Source of the DNA: Vibrio diabolicus
GTDB taxonomy: Bacteria; Pseudomonadota; Gammaproteobacteria; Enterobacterales; Vibrionaceae
DNA length: 64,000 nt
Assembly: GCA_001048675.1 (NCBI GenBank)
Contig: CCKK01000020.1
Coordinates: 496,001 to 560,000 of the forward strand
Direction of reading: 5' to 3'
Positions 883 through 63,569 of the stretch are shown in pieces. How positions within the stretch are numbered: position 1 is the first letter of the stretch; every line of letters starts with the position of its first letter. The translations under genes and the position numbers were made by a program. The notes beneath the pieces were generated by a model. That model saw only the letters and a list, made by a program, of their open reading frames with translations. It did not search any database and was not told where the DNA came from.

Positions 883-2960
883 CTAATATTCTATTTTACG
901 TTTAAATGGAGGTAGTGAGTCGATTAAGGCTTGTCCGTATCGCTTAGTGACTAGGCGTCGATCAAGAATCGTTACTCTACCAGAATCTCTCTCTTTACGC
1001 AGTAAGCGACCTACGCTCTGGATCAGCTTTTTGCTTGCGTCAGGTACAGTTATTTGCATAAATGGGTTCCCTCCTTTTTTCTCGATATATTCGGAGTGAG
1101 CCTGTTCGACAGGGGAGGTTGGAACACCAAATGGAATTTTTGTTATCACCAAGTTTTCAAGTAATTCGCCAGGTAAATCTAGCCCCTCAGAGAAACTGCC
1201 AGTACCAAATAAGATGCTGGTTTTATTTGATTCTATTAGCTTTTTATGTTTTTTTAGAATTTCTTGACGTGAGCTTTCACCTTGAACTTGCAATGCCCAG
1301 CCTTTTTTTATTGAACTCCGAAGACAGCGCCTTCGCAACTTGGTTCATCTGCCAATAGGATGAGAATAATACTAAGTTGGCTTTCTTGTCTTCCAAGTAC
1401 TTAGGCAATATCTCGATAAGATATTCAGTAAATTGAGGCGCTGGTGGTTCATATTTCATCGCAGGGATGAGCAATTCTGCCTGGTTTTGGTAATCGAATG
1501 GTGACGCAAGCGCTAAAAACTGTGTGCCTGATTCTGGTTTTCCATCAATACCAACCTGATGGCAAAAGTAATGGAAGGAGTTTAATGCACGCATCGTTGC
1601 GGAAACTAAAATGGCGCCAATGCACCTGCTCCAAATTTGTTGGTCGAGTTGCCATCCAATTTCAAGCGGAGAAACACTCACAATGAAATCACCCTCGCGA
1701 TCGGGGTGGGTTTCTAACCAGCGAGCTAAAGGCGCACCTTTTTCACGAGTTGGCTCAGCCATCAAGTGCCATACTTGCGCTAGGTTTTCTAACCTTTGAA
1801 TGTAGAAGCCGAGCTCTGCAAGCGCTGGTTCAGCCAATCTTGTCGCAAGCTCCCCATCTTTTACTCTTTCCGCAATAAGGTCGGCAATTTTTGCCACACT
1901 TTGATTTGCTTTTTTACTGAACTGCTTTAACTCTTTGGATTGGTTCTCTAGCCATTCTGGTAGTTCACCGTGCTCAAAGCGGTAGATACTCTCTTCAAAT
2001 TGAGCTGGATCGAACTGTTTAGGCAGTTGAGTCAGTGCTGGTATCAAGTTCTGAACCGCGTCTTGAAGGTCGTTGCGAAATCGAGCTACGCGCTTCTCGT
2101 CTGCGAGCGACGAAAACTTGCTAATCGACTGATTTAACTTCTCAAGCCATGCTGCCGCACCTTTTAAGCTAGCAGATGCTGAAGCATGATCGCGGGCGAC
2201 GTGAGGTAAGTGATGTGCCTCGTCAAAGACGTATATCGTGTTTTCTGGCTCAGGTAAGATTACTCCGCCCCCCAACGTCTGCGTCTGCCATGACGAGAGA
2301 GTGGTTCGCAATGATGACATCATTCTTATCCAGCTCCGAGCGCGCTTTTTGAAATGGACAGCCGCGATGGCCCGGTAGACTGTTATTGCAACTGTGTTTA
2401 TCACTGACAATCAGTTGCCAAAGCTTATCATCGATGGTTTTAGGCCAAGAATCACGGTCACCATCCCATTTACCTTGCGCAAGAGAGCGATGCATTGTTT
2501 CCAACAGCTCTATATCTTTTTGCTTAGGCTTGGTTTCGAACATGGCTAACTGACCACCATCAGCACCACAAGCTGAAGCAAGTTTTTCTGCACAACAATA
2601 GCGTTGACGGCCTTTTGCCAAAATAAAAGAAAACTCTCGGTCGGTAATCCGACGAAAAAGAGGGAGGTCTTTATTTATGAGCTGCTCTTGCAGAGCTACG
2701 GTCGCCGTTGAGATAACCACTTTTCTATTGTTATGTACAGCCACGGGGATGGCAGCCATTAGATAGGAGAGCGACTTACCAATTCCAGTCCCTGCTTCTG
2801 CAACCAGTATTCGGTTAGATTTGTGGTACTGACCGCACAGCGTTTTTGCAATCTCTGCAACAAGGTAGTTTTGTGCTCTTCTAGGTACAAAGTTATCAAG
2901 TTGATCTTGCAGGTTTTGATAGCTATTACGAATCGATTTTTGAATGTTACTGGTCAGCAT
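883..2960 (-). pseudogene. dinG: ATP-dependent DNA helicase DinG, interrupted by two +1 frameshifts
   Basis: The reading frame of an XPD-like Fe-S superfamily 2 helicase is split across three frames. The first part (from ATG 2960) holds the Walker A motif EAGTGIGKS and the Fe-S cysteines (RYCCAEKL and SCNNSLPGHRGC). The second part holds the DEAH box VFDEAHHLP. The third holds motif VI (QSVGRLLRKERDSGR). The shifts fall at a C6 run (2268-2273) and a T7 run (1303-1309). Deleting one base at each gives a continuous 691-residue protein with intact junctions, close to the roughly 700-residue family length. DinG unwinds R-loops and other structured DNA. I chose ATG 2960, which gives MLTSNIQKSIRNSYQ, over the ATG 36 bp upstream because the extra residues do not look conserved. 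No full LexA box is visible upstream. Sequencing error is more likely than true inactivation. Confidence 0.9.
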
Positions 2961-3007
2961 ACGGGCCTCAAATGCGTTGGAGGCGAATAGTAGCACACAT
3001 CACTAGT

Positions 3008-3023
3008 TGTACAGTAGTTCACA
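3008..3023. promoter_or_regulatory. Candidate CRP-binding site upstream of the porin
   Basis: The sequence TGTAC-AGTAGT-TCACA has a perfect right half and a 3/5 left half compared with TGTGA-N6-TCACA. V. cholerae ompT is activated by cAMP-CRP from a distant upstream site, which fits the position some 460 bp before the start codon. It could equally serve dinG. Low confidence. Confidence 0.3.
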
Positions 3024-3085
3024 AAACGGAATGCTTTTATGAGGAATGTAGATCTTCTTCACAAAAAAATATTGAACCTTATCTA

Positions 3086-3103
3086 AATGAAATTAATTTC
3101 ATT
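3086..3103. promoter_or_regulatory. Perfect 18-bp palindrome, possible operator
   Basis: AATGAAATT is followed directly by its exact reverse complement AATTTCATT. It sits in the middle of the AT-rich porin control region, so it is a plausible dimer operator, although AT-rich DNA produces such palindromes more readily by chance. Confidence 0.35.
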
Positions 3104-3475
3104 ATATGAAAAATATAAAACTCCAAATATGATATTTGTATGGTTTTTTATTCTATATATTGTGTTTTTTAGTATTTGTTTTGGTTTTAAAATCTCATTG
3201 TTAATGGTTTTATAAATTATGAAAAATCAAGAGGATTGATTAGATGTTCGTCGAATAAATAAAGATAAACTTTTCAAGCTATTGTTTTTAAATGTTATTT
3301 TTGTTTTTTTACATTGGTATTTAGAAAATTTGACAGCCAGAATAATCTTTTGCACTCTTAGCTCCAGATTTTGAGAAGGCGCTGTATAACGTTTTGTTAA
3401 CGCTCTATCTCAAACATATAAAAAAAGGGAACCGGACAAGGATATCCCGAACTAAGAAAAGGCAGTGGATTAATT

Positions 3476-4507
3476 ATGAAAAAAACTCTATTAGCACTAG
3501 CTGTAGTTGCGTCTGCAACTTCAGTGAACGCAGCTGAAGTATTCAAATCTGAAGAAGGTTCTGTAGATTTCTACGGTCAGCTACGTCCAACTCTTCTATT
3601 CCTAGACAGCACAGACCACACTGCAGAGCTAAACACTAGCTCTTCTCGTATGGGTGTAAATGGTGTTTACGTTGTAAACGACAACCTAAAAGTTCTAGGT
3701 GAAGTTGAAATCGGTGTTGCTCTAGGTGACAACTACGGTGCAGGTGCTGATTCAAGCGAGCGTACTGATGACTCAGTATACGTACGCCGTCACATCTTTG
3801 GCTTCGACATGGGCGATATGGGTACACTTCGTTTTGGTAAAGAAGGTACTTGGGCTGATGACATCTACGGAGCTGATTACTCATACTTCTTCGGTGGTTC
3901 TGCACTTCTTTACGGACACGCGTGGAACAACTCTTCTCAAATTAAATACGCTTACGAAAATGACGCATTCTGGCTAAAAGCTGGTTACGCGCTAGGTGAG
4001 AAAGATCAAAACGAAGAAATCCGCGAAGTATTCGTAGGTAAGTCTTTCAATGACCTATCTGTACACGCTGGCGTTCTTTCTTCTGAGAACAAGATTGCTT
4101 CTAAAGGTAACAACACTGAGAACCTATCTTTCGAAGTAACTGCTGAATACGCTCTAGATGAGCACACTCTAGGTGCTACGTACTACTACAACGAAAATGA
4201 AGACAAAGCAGCTAACGAGACTATCGATTCTCACGGTATCTCTCTAGCAGGCATGTTCGCTGTAGCTCCTAAAACAACACTTTACTCTGGCTACGAGCTA
4301 GTAATGTCATCTTCTGACAAATCTGGCAAGAAAGATGGCGACCAATCTAAGTTTTACGCTGGCGTTGAATACAAGTTCTCTAAATGGGCTCGCGTATTCG
4401 CAGAAGCGGGTTACAATTTTGATGGTGATAAGCTAGAAGCTGGTAAAACAACTGCAGAAACTGATTCTAAAACTGACTTCGGTGTTGGTGCACGTTTCTA
4501 CTGGTAA
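3476..4507 (+). CDS. ompT: Outer-membrane general porin, OmpT-like
   Basis: A 343-residue trimeric-porin family protein. It has a 19-residue signal peptide (MKKTLLALAVVASATSVNA, cleaved before AEV), then VDFYGQLRPTLLF as the first beta strand and SRMGVNG/TLRFGKEGTW motifs typical of Gram-negative porins. It ends in the aromatic beta-signal VGARFYW. It forms a passive channel for small solutes in the outer membrane. Its place next to dinG matches V. cholerae ompT, and I use that symbol by synteny; OmpU-type paralogues are the alternative. Codon use is strongly biased towards highly expressed codons. A rho-independent terminator follows at 4531. Repression by ToxR and activation by CRP are known for V. 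cholerae ompT but are only inferred here. Confidence 0.85.
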   Translation: MKKTLLALAVVASATSVNAAEVFKSEEGSVDFYGQLRPTLLFLDSTDHTAELNTSSSRMGVNGVYVVNDNLKVLGEVEIGVALGDNYGAGADSSERTDDSVYVRRHIFGFDMGDMGTLRFGKEGTWADDIYGADYSYFFGGSALLYGHAWNNSSQIKYAYENDAFWLKAGYALGEKDQNEEIREVFVGKSFNDLSVHAGVLSSENKIASKGNNTENLSFEVTAEYALDEHTLGATYYYNENEDKAANETIDSHGISLAGMFAVAPKTTLYSGYELVMSSSDKSGKKDGDQSKFYAGVEYKFSKWARVFAEAGYNFDGDKLEAGKTTAETDSKTDFGVGARFYW

Positions 4508-4530
4508 TCAATACCCAGTTTGATATTGTA

Positions 4531-4557
4531 AGACCCAGCTATATGCTGGGTCTTTTA
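4531..4557 (+). terminator. Rho-independent terminator of the porin gene
   Basis: A 9-bp perfect stem AGACCCAGC/GCTGGGTCT with a 5-nt loop, followed by TTTT. It lies directly before the next gene's first possible start codon. Confidence 0.85.
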
Positions 4558-4559
4558 CT

Positions 4560-5261
4560 ATGAAGATAAGGATGAAAAACTCTATGCAGTTATCATTAAA
4601 AGTGGCAATGGCGTTGTCTATTCTTGCCAGTACAAACCTTTATGCTGCAACGACTTTAGTGGTTCCAGAAGACGTGAAGTTACTGGCCGTCAATATGGAG
4701 AAGCCAAAACTTGAGGGGGGACTTTTCTCTAGTGAGAAGACAATTGAGATCCCCGACGGAACTAACCAAATTGTCTTCAAATATCAACCTGCTTTTGAAA
4801 CAAACGAAAACCTTAAGACAGTTTACAGTGACGTGATCATCGCTAAGTTTGATGTTGAAAATGAAAAACTAAAGTTTGAACTACCAGAGTTTAAAACTCT
4901 TCGTCAAGCGCAAAACAACATCTCACCTTTAGATTGGCAACTGCTGGACACCAAAGGTCAACCTATTGCTTTGGTCGAAGATGTATTAGAGTCAGATGGT
5001 GTTCAAATTGGTCGTAATTACCCTCAAGAATCTCGTAACTACAATATTGCTGGCGGTATCGCGAGTGTTGCCGTTAGTTATGTAACTGTGAATCAGCATC
5101 AACAATCAGTAAGTGATATCGAGCCTCGAGTTGAGAGTAGTGATACCCGTTCAACAGTCGCATCGAACGACAGCCCAATGGTTGATGTATTAAAGACGAT
5201 GTACCAGAAAGCGTCTCCGGCGGAAAAAGAGGCATTTAAAAACTGGCTTGCTGAGCAGTAA
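4560..5261 (+). CDS. DUF2057/UPF0319 family periplasmic protein (YccT-like)
   Basis: A secreted protein of up to 233 residues. A hydrophobic signal segment (MQLSLKVAMALSILASTNLYAA) is followed by the family opening TTLVVPEDVKLLAVN and SSEKTIEIPDGTNQIVFKY. UPF0319 proteins are periplasmic; the E. coli member YccT was reported to inhibit curli assembly, but the Vibrio role is unknown. Three in-frame ATGs exist (4560, 4572, 4584). The first lies only 3 nt after the terminator tail and has no ribosome-binding site. The third is preceded by AAGGA about 11 nt upstream and gives the cleanest signal peptide, so the true start is probably 4572 or 4584. Because a terminator separates it from the porin, it may depend on read-through or on its own weak promoter. 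Confidence 0.8.
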   Translation: MKIRMKNSMQLSLKVAMALSILASTNLYAATTLVVPEDVKLLAVNMEKPKLEGGLFSSEKTIEIPDGTNQIVFKYQPAFETNENLKTVYSDVIIAKFDVENEKLKFELPEFKTLRQAQNNISPLDWQLLDTKGQPIALVEDVLESDGVQIGRNYPQESRNYNIAGGIASVAVSYVTVNQHQQSVSDIEPRVESSDTRSTVASNDSPMVDVLKTMYQKASPAEKEAFKNWLAEQ

Positions 5262-60236: not shown

Positions 60237-60266
60237 AAAAACCAGCCGAATATGGCTGGTTTTTTT
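60237..60266 (+). terminator. Terminator of nadA
   Basis: An 11-bp perfect stem AAAAACCAGCC/GGCTGGTTTTT with a 6-nt loop and further Ts. Confidence 0.9.
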
Positions 60267-60326: not shown

Positions 60327-61370
60327 ATGGCGGTGTGGTTAGTAGTTAAAAAGTGGCTTAGTTCACACCTTTTTAAATTGAGCAACCGAAGTCTTCTCAT
60401 CTTTAGTGGCTTATATGTGAGCGTTTCTTGGGGGGTGCTCATTCTCGCTGGTGAAACCGCATTAACAGACAGCTTCTCTAACTTTATCTATTACCTTATG
60501 GTTACGGCGAGTACGGTTGGCTATGGCGATTATTCTCCAGTGACAGATTTGGGTAAATGGGTTGTTGTACTGTTTGTGATCCCAGGCGGCTTGAGCCTAT
60601 TCGCTGCATTATTGGGACGTGTCGCTGGAGCAGCGATGGATTACTGGCGAGCGGGTATTTTAGGAAAACGGAGAGTAAGAGTGGAAAACCATATTGTATT
60701 GTTGGGTTGGAATGGATCGAGAACGATGCACCTTATTCGCATGTTACAACATGAAGAAGAGGGGAAGCGTCCGATTGTTTTGTGCAGCCGTTCAGAAATA
60801 GAAAACCCGTTACCAGGCGAGATCAGTTTTATCAAAGTGACCAGCTACACGGATTCACAAGAGATGAAAAACGCCAACATTGCGGAAGCCGCTTGCGTTA
60901 TTGTTGATAACCTCTCGGACGATATTACGCTGTCAGCCGCGCTGTACTGCGCTTCTGTGAATCCTTCCGCACATTTGGTCGCTTACTTTAAAGATGAGGC
61001 GTTAGGCCGTCTTTTAAGTCAACATTGTCCGAAAGCGGAATGCATACCTGCAGTTGGCGCGGAAATGCTGGCAAAAGCGGCGGTAGATCCGGGCTCAAGT
61101 GCACTTCACCAAGAGCTATTAGCTTCAACACGAGGTATGACTCAATACTCGGTCATTTATCCTGAAAGGCTGCCAGTAACTACTGTTGAGAGTCTCTTCG
61201 TTTTTCTCAAAAGGCGTCATCATGCCACGCTAATTGCTTTTGACATTGGCCATGGTATCCAACTCAACCCAGATTTAGATGCAGAAGTACCACCGAGTAC
61301 CAAGCTGTTTTACATTGCAGATGAACGTATTGAAGATTTTGCATGGAAAGAAATGAACAAGGAACAATAA
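60327..61370 (+). CDS. Two-TM potassium channel with RCK/TrkA-N domain
   Basis: A 347-residue ion channel. Two membrane helices (about 21-42 and 78-105) flank a pore helix and the selectivity filter TVGYGD (residues 63-68), the K+ signature. A cytoplasmic RCK domain begins VENHIVLLGWNGSRTMHLIRML (about 118-140), although the usual GxGxxG nucleotide-binding loop is replaced by GWNGS. It resembles Kch/MthK-type channels. Its stop overlaps the next start (TAATG), so the channel is coupled to the DUF350 protein. A gating ligand is unknown. Confidence 0.9.
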   Translation: MAVWLVVKKWLSSHLFKLSNRSLLIFSGLYVSVSWGVLILAGETALTDSFSNFIYYLMVTASTVGYGDYSPVTDLGKWVVVLFVIPGGLSLFAALLGRVAGAAMDYWRAGILGKRRVRVENHIVLLGWNGSRTMHLIRMLQHEEEGKRPIVLCSRSEIENPLPGEISFIKVTSYTDSQEMKNANIAEAACVIVDNLSDDITLSAALYCASVNPSAHLVAYFKDEALGRLLSQHCPKAECIPAVGAEMLAKAAVDPGSSALHQELLASTRGMTQYSVIYPERLPVTTVESLFVFLKRRHHATLIAFDIGHGIQLNPDLDAEVPPSTKLFYIADERIEDFAWKEMNKEQ

Positions 61371-61786
61371 TGCACATGATTGCTGACCTGTTAGCAGGTT
61401 TTCCCAATTTTTTACTCTATTTTTCTGTTTCTATTATTTTCGTTTTGGCGTTTAAGTTCATCTACGTCAAGCTTACGCCTTACGATGAATGGCACCTGAT
61501 CAAAGAAAAGCAGAATACAGCGGCAGCGATTGCACTAAGTGGTGCATTTCTTGGTTATTGTATTGCGATTTCGGGGGCGGCAAAAAACTCAGTCAACATT
61601 GTCGATTTTATGGTGTGGGGCGTTGTTGCAATGCTGGCGCAGATCATTGCATTTGCGATTGTACGTTTTGTTTTACTTCCAAAAGTGACTGAGCGTATCG
61701 AAAAAGATGAGCTGCCTGCCGGTATTGTATTAGCGGCTGTTTCTATATCGGTCGGTGTATTAAATGCCGCTTGTATGACCTACTAG
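61370..61786 (+). CDS. DUF350 family membrane protein (YjfL-like)
   Basis: A 138-residue protein with four hydrophobic segments (NFLLYFSVSIIFVLAFKFIYV, AAAIALSGAFLGYCIAISGAA, MVWGVVAMLAQIIAFAIVRFVL, GIVLAAVSISVGVLNAACMTY). The NTAAAIALSGAFLGYCIAISGA motif is the DUF350 hallmark. The start ATG 61370 follows AAGGA in the end of the channel gene. E. coli YjfL, the relative, also sits beside DUF1190 and glutathionylspermidine-synthase-like genes. The function is unknown. Confidence 0.87.
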   Translation: MHMIADLLAGFPNFLLYFSVSIIFVLAFKFIYVKLTPYDEWHLIKEKQNTAAAIALSGAFLGYCIAISGAAKNSVNIVDFMVWGVVAMLAQIIAFAIVRFVLLPKVTERIEKDELPAGIVLAAVSISVGVLNAACMTY

Positions 61787-61794
61787 GAGGAACG

Positions 61795-62364
61795 ATGAAG
61801 CGGAGTTTTAACGTTAAACGTTCTTCCATGGACAAAAGTTTAAAGCTTGGGAAAATTATTCCCTTTGCTGCTTTTGGCGGTATTTTCTTCTTTGCGACAC
61901 AAGAATCGAAAACCGAAGGCTACATTTTTTCTGACGCTGATGAATGCAAATCAAACTCGCCAGAGTTCAGTGAGCAGTGCGATATTGCTTATCAAGAAGC
62001 TTTGGCTCGCGCTGAACGAAATGCCCCTCGCTACAACAATGAGTTCGAATGTGAAAATGATTTTTACGAAGACGATTGTTACTACAGTTCGAGTTCCCAA
62101 GCTTATGTGCCTCACTTTGGGGGCTTCTTTTACAGTCGAGCACTGAGCGGTTTGAAAGGTTACAACAAGAGCTATTACTCTGAACCAATGTATCGCTATA
62201 AATCCAAATTCTATAATGGTGCCGGACAATTTTTTGGTTCCTATCGTAATCAGCCGACGAAGGTTGCGACCAGTAACCTAAATAAACGTGGTGGTGGAAC
62301 TATTGGTAGAGCGATGTCTCGAGGCGGGTTTGGTAAAGCGGTATCGGTCAGCCGAGGCGGTTAA
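61795..62364 (+). CDS. DUF1190 family protein with C-terminal Gly-Gly (YjfM/YgiB-like)
   Basis: A 189-residue protein. A basic N-terminus and one hydrophobic segment (IIPFAAFGGIFFFAT, residues 21-35) suggest a signal anchor. The family region has DADECKSNSPEFSEQCDIAYQEALARAERNAPRY and ECENDFYEDDCYY, with four conserved cysteines that could form disulfides outside the cytoplasm. The C-terminus is Gly/Arg/Ser-rich, with SRGGFGKAVSV, and ends in Arg-Gly-Gly. It has a perfect AGGAGG ribosome-binding site and lies 8 bp before the ATP-grasp gene. The function is unknown. Confidence 0.87.
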   Translation: MKRSFNVKRSSMDKSLKLGKIIPFAAFGGIFFFATQESKTEGYIFSDADECKSNSPEFSEQCDIAYQEALARAERNAPRYNNEFECENDFYEDDCYYSSSSQAYVPHFGGFFYSRALSGLKGYNKSYYSEPMYRYKSKFYNGAGQFFGSYRNQPTKVATSNLNKRGGGTIGRAMSRGGFGKAVSVSRGG

Positions 62365-62372
62365 TAAGCACT

Positions 62373-63539
62373 ATGTTTCGACGAGAAATACAAGAACGAG
62401 AAAACTGGCGTGAGTTAGCACGCCAGTTTGGTTTTGGCTTCCATTCCATGTATGACCAACCGTATTGGGATGAGAGTGCTTACTATCAATTCACGCTTGA
62501 GCAAATAGAGAACGATATTGAAGCGCCCACTGAAGAGCTGCATCAGATGTGCTTGGCTATTGTGGATGAAGTAGTTCGGAGTGAGAGGTTGCTGACGCAA
62601 TGTGCGATCCCTGAATTTATGTGGGAGCAGGTTGCTTCTTCGTGGCACCGAAATGAACCCTCACTCTATTCGCGTCTGGACTTTGCATACAACGGAACTT
62701 CGCCAGCTAAGTTACTGGAGAACAATGCGGATACGCCGACCAGCCTGTTTGAAACGGGTTTTTGGCAGTGGGTGTGGTTAGAGGATGTTGTAAATAAAGG
62801 TCTAATTCACCAGAGCGCGGATCAATTCAACATTCTTCAAGACTTTTTGATTGAGCGTTTTTCCGAGATAGCCAAATATCAACCCGGGCAAACCCTTCAC
62901 TTTAGCTGCTGCAAGTACACTGAAGAAGATAAAGGGACTGTCCAGTATTTAGAAGACTGCGCGCGCGAAGCTGGGTTAGCGACGGCGTTTGTTTATGTCG
63001 AAGATATTGGTGCGACGGAAGATGGTCTGTTTGTGGATGCAGGTGACAGAGCGATTCGTTGGATGTTCAAGCTTTATCCGTGGGAGTTTATGTTTGAAGA
63101 GGAATATGCGAAATACCTAGCGACCGCGAAAGTGAATTGGTTAGAACCCATGTGGAAGTCGATTCTATCCAACAAAGCACTTTTACCGTTATTGTGGGAG
63201 CGCTTTCCGAATCATCCTAATCTTTTACCTGCCTATTTTGCTAACGATTCAAAAGCGAACACTTTGAAAGACTATGTAATCAAACCACTATTCTCTCGAG
63301 AAGGCGCGAATATTGAGATCGTCAAAGGTGGGAAACGCATACTCAAAACAGCAGGGCCTTATGAATCTAAATTCAATATCGTCCAGCAGTATCGTCCGTT
63401 ACCCAAGTTTGGGCAAAGCCATACGTTAATTGGCAGTTGGCTAGTCAACGATAGAGCCGCTGGGATTTCGATTCGGGAAGACACTAGCTTAGTCACGCAA
63501 GATATGGCGCGATATATTCCACATGTGATTTTAACATGA
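62373..63539 (+). CDS. Glutathionylspermidine synthase family ATP-grasp ligase (YjfC/YgiC-like)
   Basis: A 388-residue C-terminal GSP-synthase domain alone, with no amidase domain. Landmarks are YWDESAYYQFTLEQIENDIEAPTEELHQMCLA, SLYSRLDFAYNGTSPAKLLENNADTPTSLFE (substrate and ATP loop), YVIKPLFSREGANIEIV (ATP-binding lysine) and VQQYRPLPKF with IGSWLVNDRAAGISIRED. The family forms an amide between a C-terminal glycine carboxylate and an amine; E. coli YgiC and YjfC do not make glutathionylspermidine as far as I recall. The true substrate here is unknown; see the DUF1190 neighbour. Confidence 0.9.
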   Translation: MFRREIQERENWRELARQFGFGFHSMYDQPYWDESAYYQFTLEQIENDIEAPTEELHQMCLAIVDEVVRSERLLTQCAIPEFMWEQVASSWHRNEPSLYSRLDFAYNGTSPAKLLENNADTPTSLFETGFWQWVWLEDVVNKGLIHQSADQFNILQDFLIERFSEIAKYQPGQTLHFSCCKYTEEDKGTVQYLEDCAREAGLATAFVYVEDIGATEDGLFVDAGDRAIRWMFKLYPWEFMFEEEYAKYLATAKVNWLEPMWKSILSNKALLPLLWERFPNHPNLLPAYFANDSKANTLKDYVIKPLFSREGANIEIVKGGKRILKTAGPYESKFNIVQQYRPLPKFGQSHTLIGSWLVNDRAAGISIREDTSLVTQDMARYIPHVILT

Positions 63540-63543
63540 TCAA

Positions 63544-63569
63544 AAAAGCTCTCCATCCAGAGAGCTTTT
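63544..63569. terminator. Bidirectional terminator after the ATP-grasp gene
   Basis: A 10-bp perfect stem AAAAGCTCTC/GAGAGCTTTT with a 6-nt loop, between convergent genes. Confidence 0.85.

Follow-up and report, generated by a model that had tools for sequence, protein, structure and literature searches.

In Escherichia coli, the ygiB-ygiC pair encodes a DUF1190 protein with an RGGFG...GG tail and, directly after it, an adenosine triphosphate (ATP)-grasp ligase, and the longer yjfIJKLMC operon holds DUF350, DUF1190 (tail RGGYG...GG) and a ligase in that order, with DUF2170, PspA and DUF2491 in front. The available part of Ravi et al. 2024 (PMC11237479) lists a K+ channel, DUF350, DUF1190, DUF2491 and an ATP-grasp ligase beside PspA in its third group of PspA-linked operons, which also has a CesT/Tir (DUF2170)-PspA pair. 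Moreover, SUMO and, in vitro, ubiquitin are known to receive a polyamine on their C-terminal Gly-Gly by way of E1 and E2 enzymes (PMC12270671, available part). Here, a related set of four genes is described from Vibrio diabolicus, in a stretch of 64,000 nucleotides (contig CCKK01000020.1, positions 496,001 to 560,000; hereafter the window), which encodes a K+ channel, DUF350, DUF1190 and a ligase. The gene combination and the activity class of the ligase are already in print, and what appears to be new here is the tail pattern of DUF1190 as a candidate target of the ligase. The core of the set would be an enzyme-substrate pair, in which DUF1190 gets a polyamine on its C-terminal glycine from the ligase before or during export, a reading to which we give slightly better than an even chance.

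The window set shares with ygiB-ygiC the tailed DUF1190 gene and the ligase directly after it, but DUF350 and the channel are not adjacent to that pair, and YgiB has a lipobox-like LAGC whereas the window DUF1190 has no such cysteine. DUF350, DUF1190 and the ligase follow the order seen in yjfIJKLMC; in contrast, that operon lacks the channel and the window set lacks the three genes in front. Compared with the PspA-linked operon, as far as the available text describes it, the channel, DUF350, DUF1190 and the ligase are common to both, whereas the window set has neither the CesT/Tir (DUF2170)-PspA pair nor DUF2491, and its neighbours are nadA and a UPF0149 gene. The conjugation of SUMO and ubiquitin to spermidine has the C-terminal Gly-Gly and the polyamine in common with the present proposal and differs in its eukaryotic E1 and E2 enzymes. 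The main features of the set are as follows.

60327..61370, + strand: two-helix K+ channel with an RCK-like cytoplasmic part, 347 residues (Pfam PF07885, E 2.6e-14; MthK alignment)
60513..60530, + strand: TVGYGD selectivity filter, channel residues 63-68 (translation)
61370..61786, + strand: DUF350 helical membrane protein of the YjfL type, 138 residues (Pfam PF03994, E 6.4e-42; AlphaFold2 model)
61795..62364, + strand: DUF1190 protein, 189 residues, proposed ligase substrate (Pfam PF06693, E 2.3e-26)
61846..61899, + strand: hydrophobic anchor of DUF1190, about residues 18-35 (alignment)
61909..62268, + strand: folded domain of DUF1190, about residues 39-158 (AlphaFold2 model; invariant columns)
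62320..62334, + strand: RGGFG tail motif, DUF1190 residues 176-180 (26-sequence alignment)
62356..62361, + strand: codons of the C-terminal Gly-Gly, DUF1190 residues 188-189, proposed conjugation site
62373..63539, + strand: YgiC-type ATP-grasp ligase, 388 residues (PF03738, E 1.5e-157 over the full length; 7uk8, E 5.4e-154)

GSP_synth (PF03738) is the sole Pfam family in the 388 residues of the ligase, and the closest solved structures are those of E. coli YgiC (7uk8) and YjfC (7uk6, E 2.9e-128), both of which are named 'peptide--spermidine ligase' in RefSeq. The apparent source of these names is an article by Pederick et al. (2023, Biochemistry 62:899), which reportedly gives peptide-spermidine ligase in its title. 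Glutathionylspermidine synthetase links spermidine to glutathione through the carboxylate of its glycine. In the alignment with glutathionylspermidine synthetase/amidase (GspSA), the window ligase keeps the residues that correspond to R316, D318, E330, N332, K498, K533 and R598, which we take to be the ATP-grasp catalytic residues, and it has Thr at the positions of S335 and S337, which presumably have a role in glutathione binding. By its full-length PF03738 match, its closest structures and its kept catalytic residues, the window ligase is of the YgiC/YjfC type, and its predicted activity is the ATP-dependent joining of a peptide to spermidine. The family and the catalytic residues are common to GspSA and the window ligase; in contrast, GspSA has an N-terminal amidase domain, which the window protein lacks. 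Longer GspSA-like proteins occur in a few members of the genus (G098, G102 and G142). According to Sui et al. 2012, as cited in the available part of PMC12506659, the activity of GspSA is missing in YgiC.

The C-terminus of the window DUF1190 reads ...SRGGFGKAVSVSRGG. Across 26 aligned sequences, no variation is seen at R176, G178, F179, G180 or the penultimate residue G188, and very little at G177 and the last residue G189. Among 130 distinct ligase-adjacent copies of DUF1190, Gly is the last residue in 120 and the penultimate one in 126, 119 copies end in Gly-Gly, and among the final 30 positions these two vary least. At positions -40 to -3, Gly makes up 13% of residues and GG 3.7% of neighbour pairs. 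A GGFG-type motif is present in 129 of the 130 copies, and its distance to the end varies from 9 to 37 residues. When the copies are clustered by identity, Gly-Gly is the majority ending in 43 of 51 clusters at 60%, 20 of 27 at 45% and 17 of 22 at 40%.

The same ending is found when loci are chosen by the ligase alone. In such a set, the best 80 of 592 ligase matches, DUF1190 is in the locus in 77 cases and ends in Gly-Gly in 73, and the other endings are GS (L170, L179, L235) and LA (L174). The LA sequence, identical in L174 and L240, ends in ...STLA and is possibly a draft-genome frameshift; it is counted unmended as an exception. A larger set of 154 distinct ligase loci, which is non-random since many were picked through channel or DUF1190 matches, has a tailed protein in 151 (GG in 136, GS in 9, SS in 2, and GA, LA, AS and GE in one each), a rule-based count in which seven loci were reclassified by eye. 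These comprise four chance matches with a Gly-Gly-ended DUF1190 elsewhere in the locus (L077, L096, L154, L155) and three that the rule had missed (L126, L134, L135). As a control, open reading frames of at least 60 residues that lie over 1.5 kb away from the ligase and outside the profiled families show the tail pattern in 10 of 4860 cases, one of which is the L126 protein in the DUF1190 slot, and none of the 10 ends in Gly-Gly.

In a sample of 249 genomes from the phylum, DUF1190 occurs in 26, a ligase of the YgiC type in 38 (weak and GspSA-like matches left out) and both in 25. A tailed protein lies close to the ligase in every one of the 38 ligase genomes (GG 28, GS 6, SS 2, AS 1, GE 1), counted with a single protein for each genome under a looser rule that also allows RGGF and was set after L134 and L135 had been inspected. 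In 13 of these genomes Pfam gives no DUF1190 match, and each of the 13 has a tailed protein in the slot, as does G331, whose DUF1190 matches lie elsewhere, and the sole DUF1190 genome without a ligase (G233, L107) has no such tail. The slot proteins from loci with no DUF1190 match (L123-L133, L136, L233) are short and in many cases have a K/R-rich start and a single hydrophobic stretch; examples of their ends are QRGGFGSFGHAIGFSGG, TRGGFGHSGARFSGGG, KRGGFGRSGRGGS and SRGGFGTTASSAPHSAVGHSAGG. An N-terminal FGKR motif is common to the short slot proteins of L123-L127, L136 and L233. We gave up the idea that the shorter slot proteins are carriers with no relation at all to DUF1190, as many of them share, by eye, the K/R-rich N-terminus and the hydrophobic stretch with DUF1190, and they may be worn-down DUF1190 relatives. 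In E. coli, YgiB ends in SRSMGG and YjfM in GHWGG.

The rest of DUF1190 has the layout of an anchored protein with a folded domain and a tail. Four cysteines (51, 62, 86 and 95), all after the anchor, are invariant in the 26-sequence alignment. A lipobox cysteine is absent from the window DUF1190, which has Thr35 at the alignment position where most aligned relatives have Cys, and also from 12 other relatives at the nadA locus (L111, L112, L117, L119, L121, L143-L149). In the AlphaFold2 model the domain has a confidence near 90 and the tail is low, with block means of 57-62, as is the N-terminal anchor; the low-confidence tail would fit a loose tail without proving it. No structure matches the DUF1190 model with Z >2.5, and Foldseek gives none with E <0.001. 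A GlyGly-CTERM sorting signal consists of Gly-Gly followed by a transmembrane helix and basic residues, and it is not found in the window DUF1190, where Gly-Gly are the last two residues.

The distribution of the genes across the genus also ties DUF1190 to the ligase. In a sample of 148 Vibrio genomes, the channel (threshold E <1e-40) is present in 111, the YgiC-type ligase in 35, DUF1190 in 35 and strong DUF350 (E <1e-25) in 36, where the ligase count leaves out G098 and G102 (GspSA-like matches only) and G097 (weak match), and the DUF350 count leaves out G001 and G096 (weaker, over the Pfam cut-off) and G146 (under the cut-off). The ligase genomes and the DUF1190 genomes are the identical 35, all of which have DUF350 and the channel as well, and the only strong DUF350 genome outside them is G043. 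A further DUF350 away from the ligase occurs in two members, G043 (C9:133425-133799) and G134 (C2:496429-496803). In some of the 35 genomes (e.g., G074, G077, G105, G111 and G134), DUF350, DUF1190 and the ligase do not adjoin the channel.

Compared with related loci, the window set is a reduced form of a seven-gene operon that comprises DUF2170, PspA, channel, DUF2491, DUF350, DUF1190 and ligase, with the three extra genes confirmed by Pfam in L078. Within 4.5 kb of the ligase, the 154 loci show DUF1190 and ligase in 52, the full form in 38, channel, DUF350, DUF1190 and ligase in 18, DUF350, DUF1190 and ligase in 16, DUF350 and ligase with no recognised DUF1190 in 11, the full form without the channel in 10, the ligase alone by profiles in 6, and three other patterns once each. 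Since the same genes recur in the same order in other genomes, the four-gene arrangement is not due to chance. Channel-bearing ligase loci include Alteromonadaceae, Halomonadaceae, Xanthomonas and two alphaproteobacteria.

A GspS-family enzyme that is named for joining a peptide to spermidine and is encoded beside a Gly-Gly-tailed protein would most simply use that tail, and the conserved pattern suggests that the tail is the ligase's own target. In the proposed mechanism, the ligase would activate the C-terminal carboxylate of DUF1190 with ATP and couple it through an amide linkage to one of the primary amines of a polyamine, by analogy with glutathionylspermidine synthetase and the glycine of glutathione. 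The loose tail from RGGFG to the final Gly-Gly would both be recognised by the enzyme and accept the polyamine. Spermidine is one candidate for the amine and norspermidine another in this vibrio, as the source genome has nspC for carboxynorspermidine decarboxylase (E 1.9e-160). The ligase depends on ATP, and DUF1190 has an export signal or anchor followed by the cysteines; conjugation would therefore occur in the cytoplasm, ahead of export or in the course of it, and yield an anchored periplasmic protein that bears a cationic polyamine tail. DUF350 may provide a membrane step in the handling or assembly of the modified DUF1190, and the K+ channel would accompany the pair as a separable partner. 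The gene set, the kept ATP-grasp residues, the conserved tail with its end and the co-occurrence of DUF1190 with the ligase are observed here; DUF1190 as the substrate, the choice of amine, the timing of conjugation relative to export and the parts played by DUF350 and the channel are inferred.

Several observations weigh against this proposal. The ending is not Gly-Gly in 15 of the 151 tails, including one genus member that ends in GA (L145), which means either that Gly is not strictly required or that those proteins are unmodified. The DUF1190-like neighbour in L245 has no motif and ends in AG, and the Photobacterium ligases of L161 and L162 have no tailed gene beside them; in these two genomes a Gly-Gly-ended DUF1190 lies elsewhere, accompanied by DUF350 and DUF2491, and the stretch examined there contains no ligase (L246, L247). 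Where DUF1190 is near but not next to the ligase, the end is not Gly-Gly in 3 of 10 cases, namely one of the two copies in L074 and a pair of small, divergent paralogues in L106, and only one of five DUF1190 copies without a ligase in the fetched stretch ends in Gly-Gly (L242). Moreover, the C-terminal ends of DUF350 and of the ligase are conserved as well, and thus a conserved end alone is no proof of modification. Finally, export would put the tail on the side that has no ATP, and the proposed order is hypothetical. As for the two copies in L074 (G144), they lie in one operon on the - strand at 3985-5010 and 2560-3480, and only the ligase-adjacent copy has the Gly-Gly end.

Two other explanations of the tail have to be weighed against the enzyme-substrate pair. 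The tail may be a docking or pseudo-substrate arm, which places the ligase at the membrane or keeps its active site closed, with small peptide-spermidine conjugates as the true products. The naming of YgiC and YjfC for peptide activity, the position of RGGFG well before the tail end, which suits a docking site, and the non-Gly-Gly tails all agree with such an arm; however, if the tail only docked, its last residue would not need to be so constant when the length of the preceding stretch varies, and we regard this explanation as rather unlikely. Alternatively, the end may be kept for a reason unrelated to the ligase, as a sorting, assembly or turnover signal or as a by-product of the ribosome-binding site of the ligase gene. 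The conserved ends of the other proteins of the set fit this, and the DUF1190 stop lies within a few bases of the ligase start in most of the 117 Gly-Gly-ended copies with a ligase start downstream. In these copies, however, the first Gly codon is GGA in 16 and GGC or GGT in 90, so the Gly-Gly pair is seldom a GGAGG site, and an artefact of the ribosome-binding site is disfavoured. Gly-Gly is also kept where no ligase follows directly (7 of the 10 linked, non-adjacent copies; L246 and L247), and across the 148 genus genomes DUF1190 and the ligase have identical distributions, both of which make a ligase-unrelated end unlikely. Nine Gly-Gly-ended copies listed as having no ligase directly downstream were selected for Gly-Gly and are examples, not a rate; L092 among them actually adjoins a ligase.

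The sequence-only reading of this DNA had suggested that the set serves envelope stress or membrane potential, with a ligase that responds to ion flux by modifying an envelope protein or a polyamine. The channel itself had been described as a TVGYGD channel with an RCK domain. It matches Ion_trans_2 (PF07885), and its TrkA_N match of 19.7 bits is under the cut-off of 23.8, while residues 19-312, including the RCK part, align with MthK (E 1.9e-17); the two-helix pore, the filter and the alignable RCK part are shared with MthK-type RCK potassium channels. Its co-occurrence with the ligase beyond close relatives also held, as 23 of the best 80 of 592 ligase loci contain the channel, and their families range from Alteromonadaceae to Stappiaceae. 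In the full operon the set is found with the channel, PspA and DUF2170, as also listed in the available part of PMC11237479, which favours a channel-coupled system and bears out the suggested link to PspA and DUF2170 for that form; the window set, however, has no PspA, DUF2170 or DUF2491, and the sole strong PspA match of the source genome is about 97 kb past the window end on the same contig. In addition, 76 of the 111 channel-bearing genus genomes have neither ligase nor DUF1190, and enterobacterial loci of the ygiBC type have no channel.

The nadA locus gives the same picture. Among 25 such loci inspected, including that of the window, all three other genes lie 3' of the channel in 13 and none in 12 (L063-L066, L082, L113-L116, L118, L120 and L122), and no intermediate with one or two of them was seen. 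In the channel tree, which is midpoint-rooted and has some long branches, the 25 channels form one group (99/99) adjoining the full-operon channels of the genus, and the loci with and without the three genes are intermixed inside it. The nearest relative of the window channel on the tree, 89% identical, is without the three genes. We read the nadA locus as a reduced full operon from which the three genes were later lost as one block on several occasions, although gains are conceivable too. The channel is thus an associated but separable gene, and DUF350, DUF1190 and the ligase travel together. Because the channel is in 111 of 148 genomes and the other three occur together in only 35, an ion-flux-driven ligase is without direct support, and control of the ligase by the channel is very unlikely in our view. 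The other half of that claim, the modification of an envelope protein, is strengthened and made concrete by the tail, and an envelope-stress role of the set remains a suggestion from gene context. The statement that no function had been shown for the combination overlooked the peptide--spermidine ligase naming of the E. coli homologues and the channel combination in print (PMC11237479, available part). A block of the K+ channel by the polyamine tail was considered as well and dropped; there is no evidence for it and the channel is separable.

The AlphaFold2 model of DUF350 consists of helices only, with a mean predicted local distance difference test score (pLDDT) of 92.9, and in a structure search the best Z of 9.2 is below the meaningful level for helical bundles; Foldseek gives no match with E <0.001. 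Profiles of DUF350 and DUF1190 find nothing better than E 0.1 among the sequences of solved structures, and the missing structure matches prove nothing for either protein. Of the 154 loci, 96 have DUF350 no more than 4.5 kb from the ligase, and the 52 with DUF1190 and ligase are not among them.

The four genes, their coordinates and their spacings, as given by the sequence-only reading, are all correct on re-reading. Channel and DUF350 overlap by one base (-1 bp; the stop and the start share one base in TAATG), and 8 bp separate both DUF350 from DUF1190 and DUF1190 from the ligase, a spacing that supports one gene unit, as the sequence-only reading proposed. The ribosome-binding sites, described there as strong, are good by eye before DUF350 (AAGGAA) and DUF1190 (AGGAGG), but GAGGCGG before the ligase is weak. 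An inverted repeat of 11 pairs near the start of the ligase gene (62402-62429), terminator-like on both strands in the pattern scan, is a possible site of internal regulation of ligase expression. The surroundings of the set are as follows.

Flanks of the four-gene set, all of which is on the + strand: nadA upstream and a convergent UPF0149 gene downstream
60237..60264, + strand: terminator-like hairpin in the interval between nadA and the channel (pattern match)
63544..63569, no strand assigned: inverted repeat between the ligase and the UPF0149 gene, a possible terminator (by eye; absent from the listing of the terminator pattern scan of the window)

The available parts of five open-licence papers (PMC11237479, PMC12270671, PMC12568646, PMC12506659 and PMC10948618) make no mention of a Gly-Gly tail on DUF1190 and state no natural substrate for YgiC or YjfC. 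The tail pattern gives one candidate natural substrate for each, YgiB for YgiC and YjfM for YjfC. A wider proposal, which we hold tentatively and give somewhat less than an even chance, is that proteobacteria have a dedicated C-terminal modification, in which an anchored RGGFG...Gly-Gly protein with its own ATP-grasp ligase would receive a polyamine on the terminal glycine for display in the periplasm, a single-enzyme counterpart, independent in origin, of the ubiquitin-like Gly-Gly/spermidine conjugation. The finished product might, speculatively, set its cationic tail against lipopolysaccharide, the membrane or porins. If true, polyamine-based protein modification would be added to the bacterial envelope, and DUF1190, perhaps also DUF350, would gain a function.

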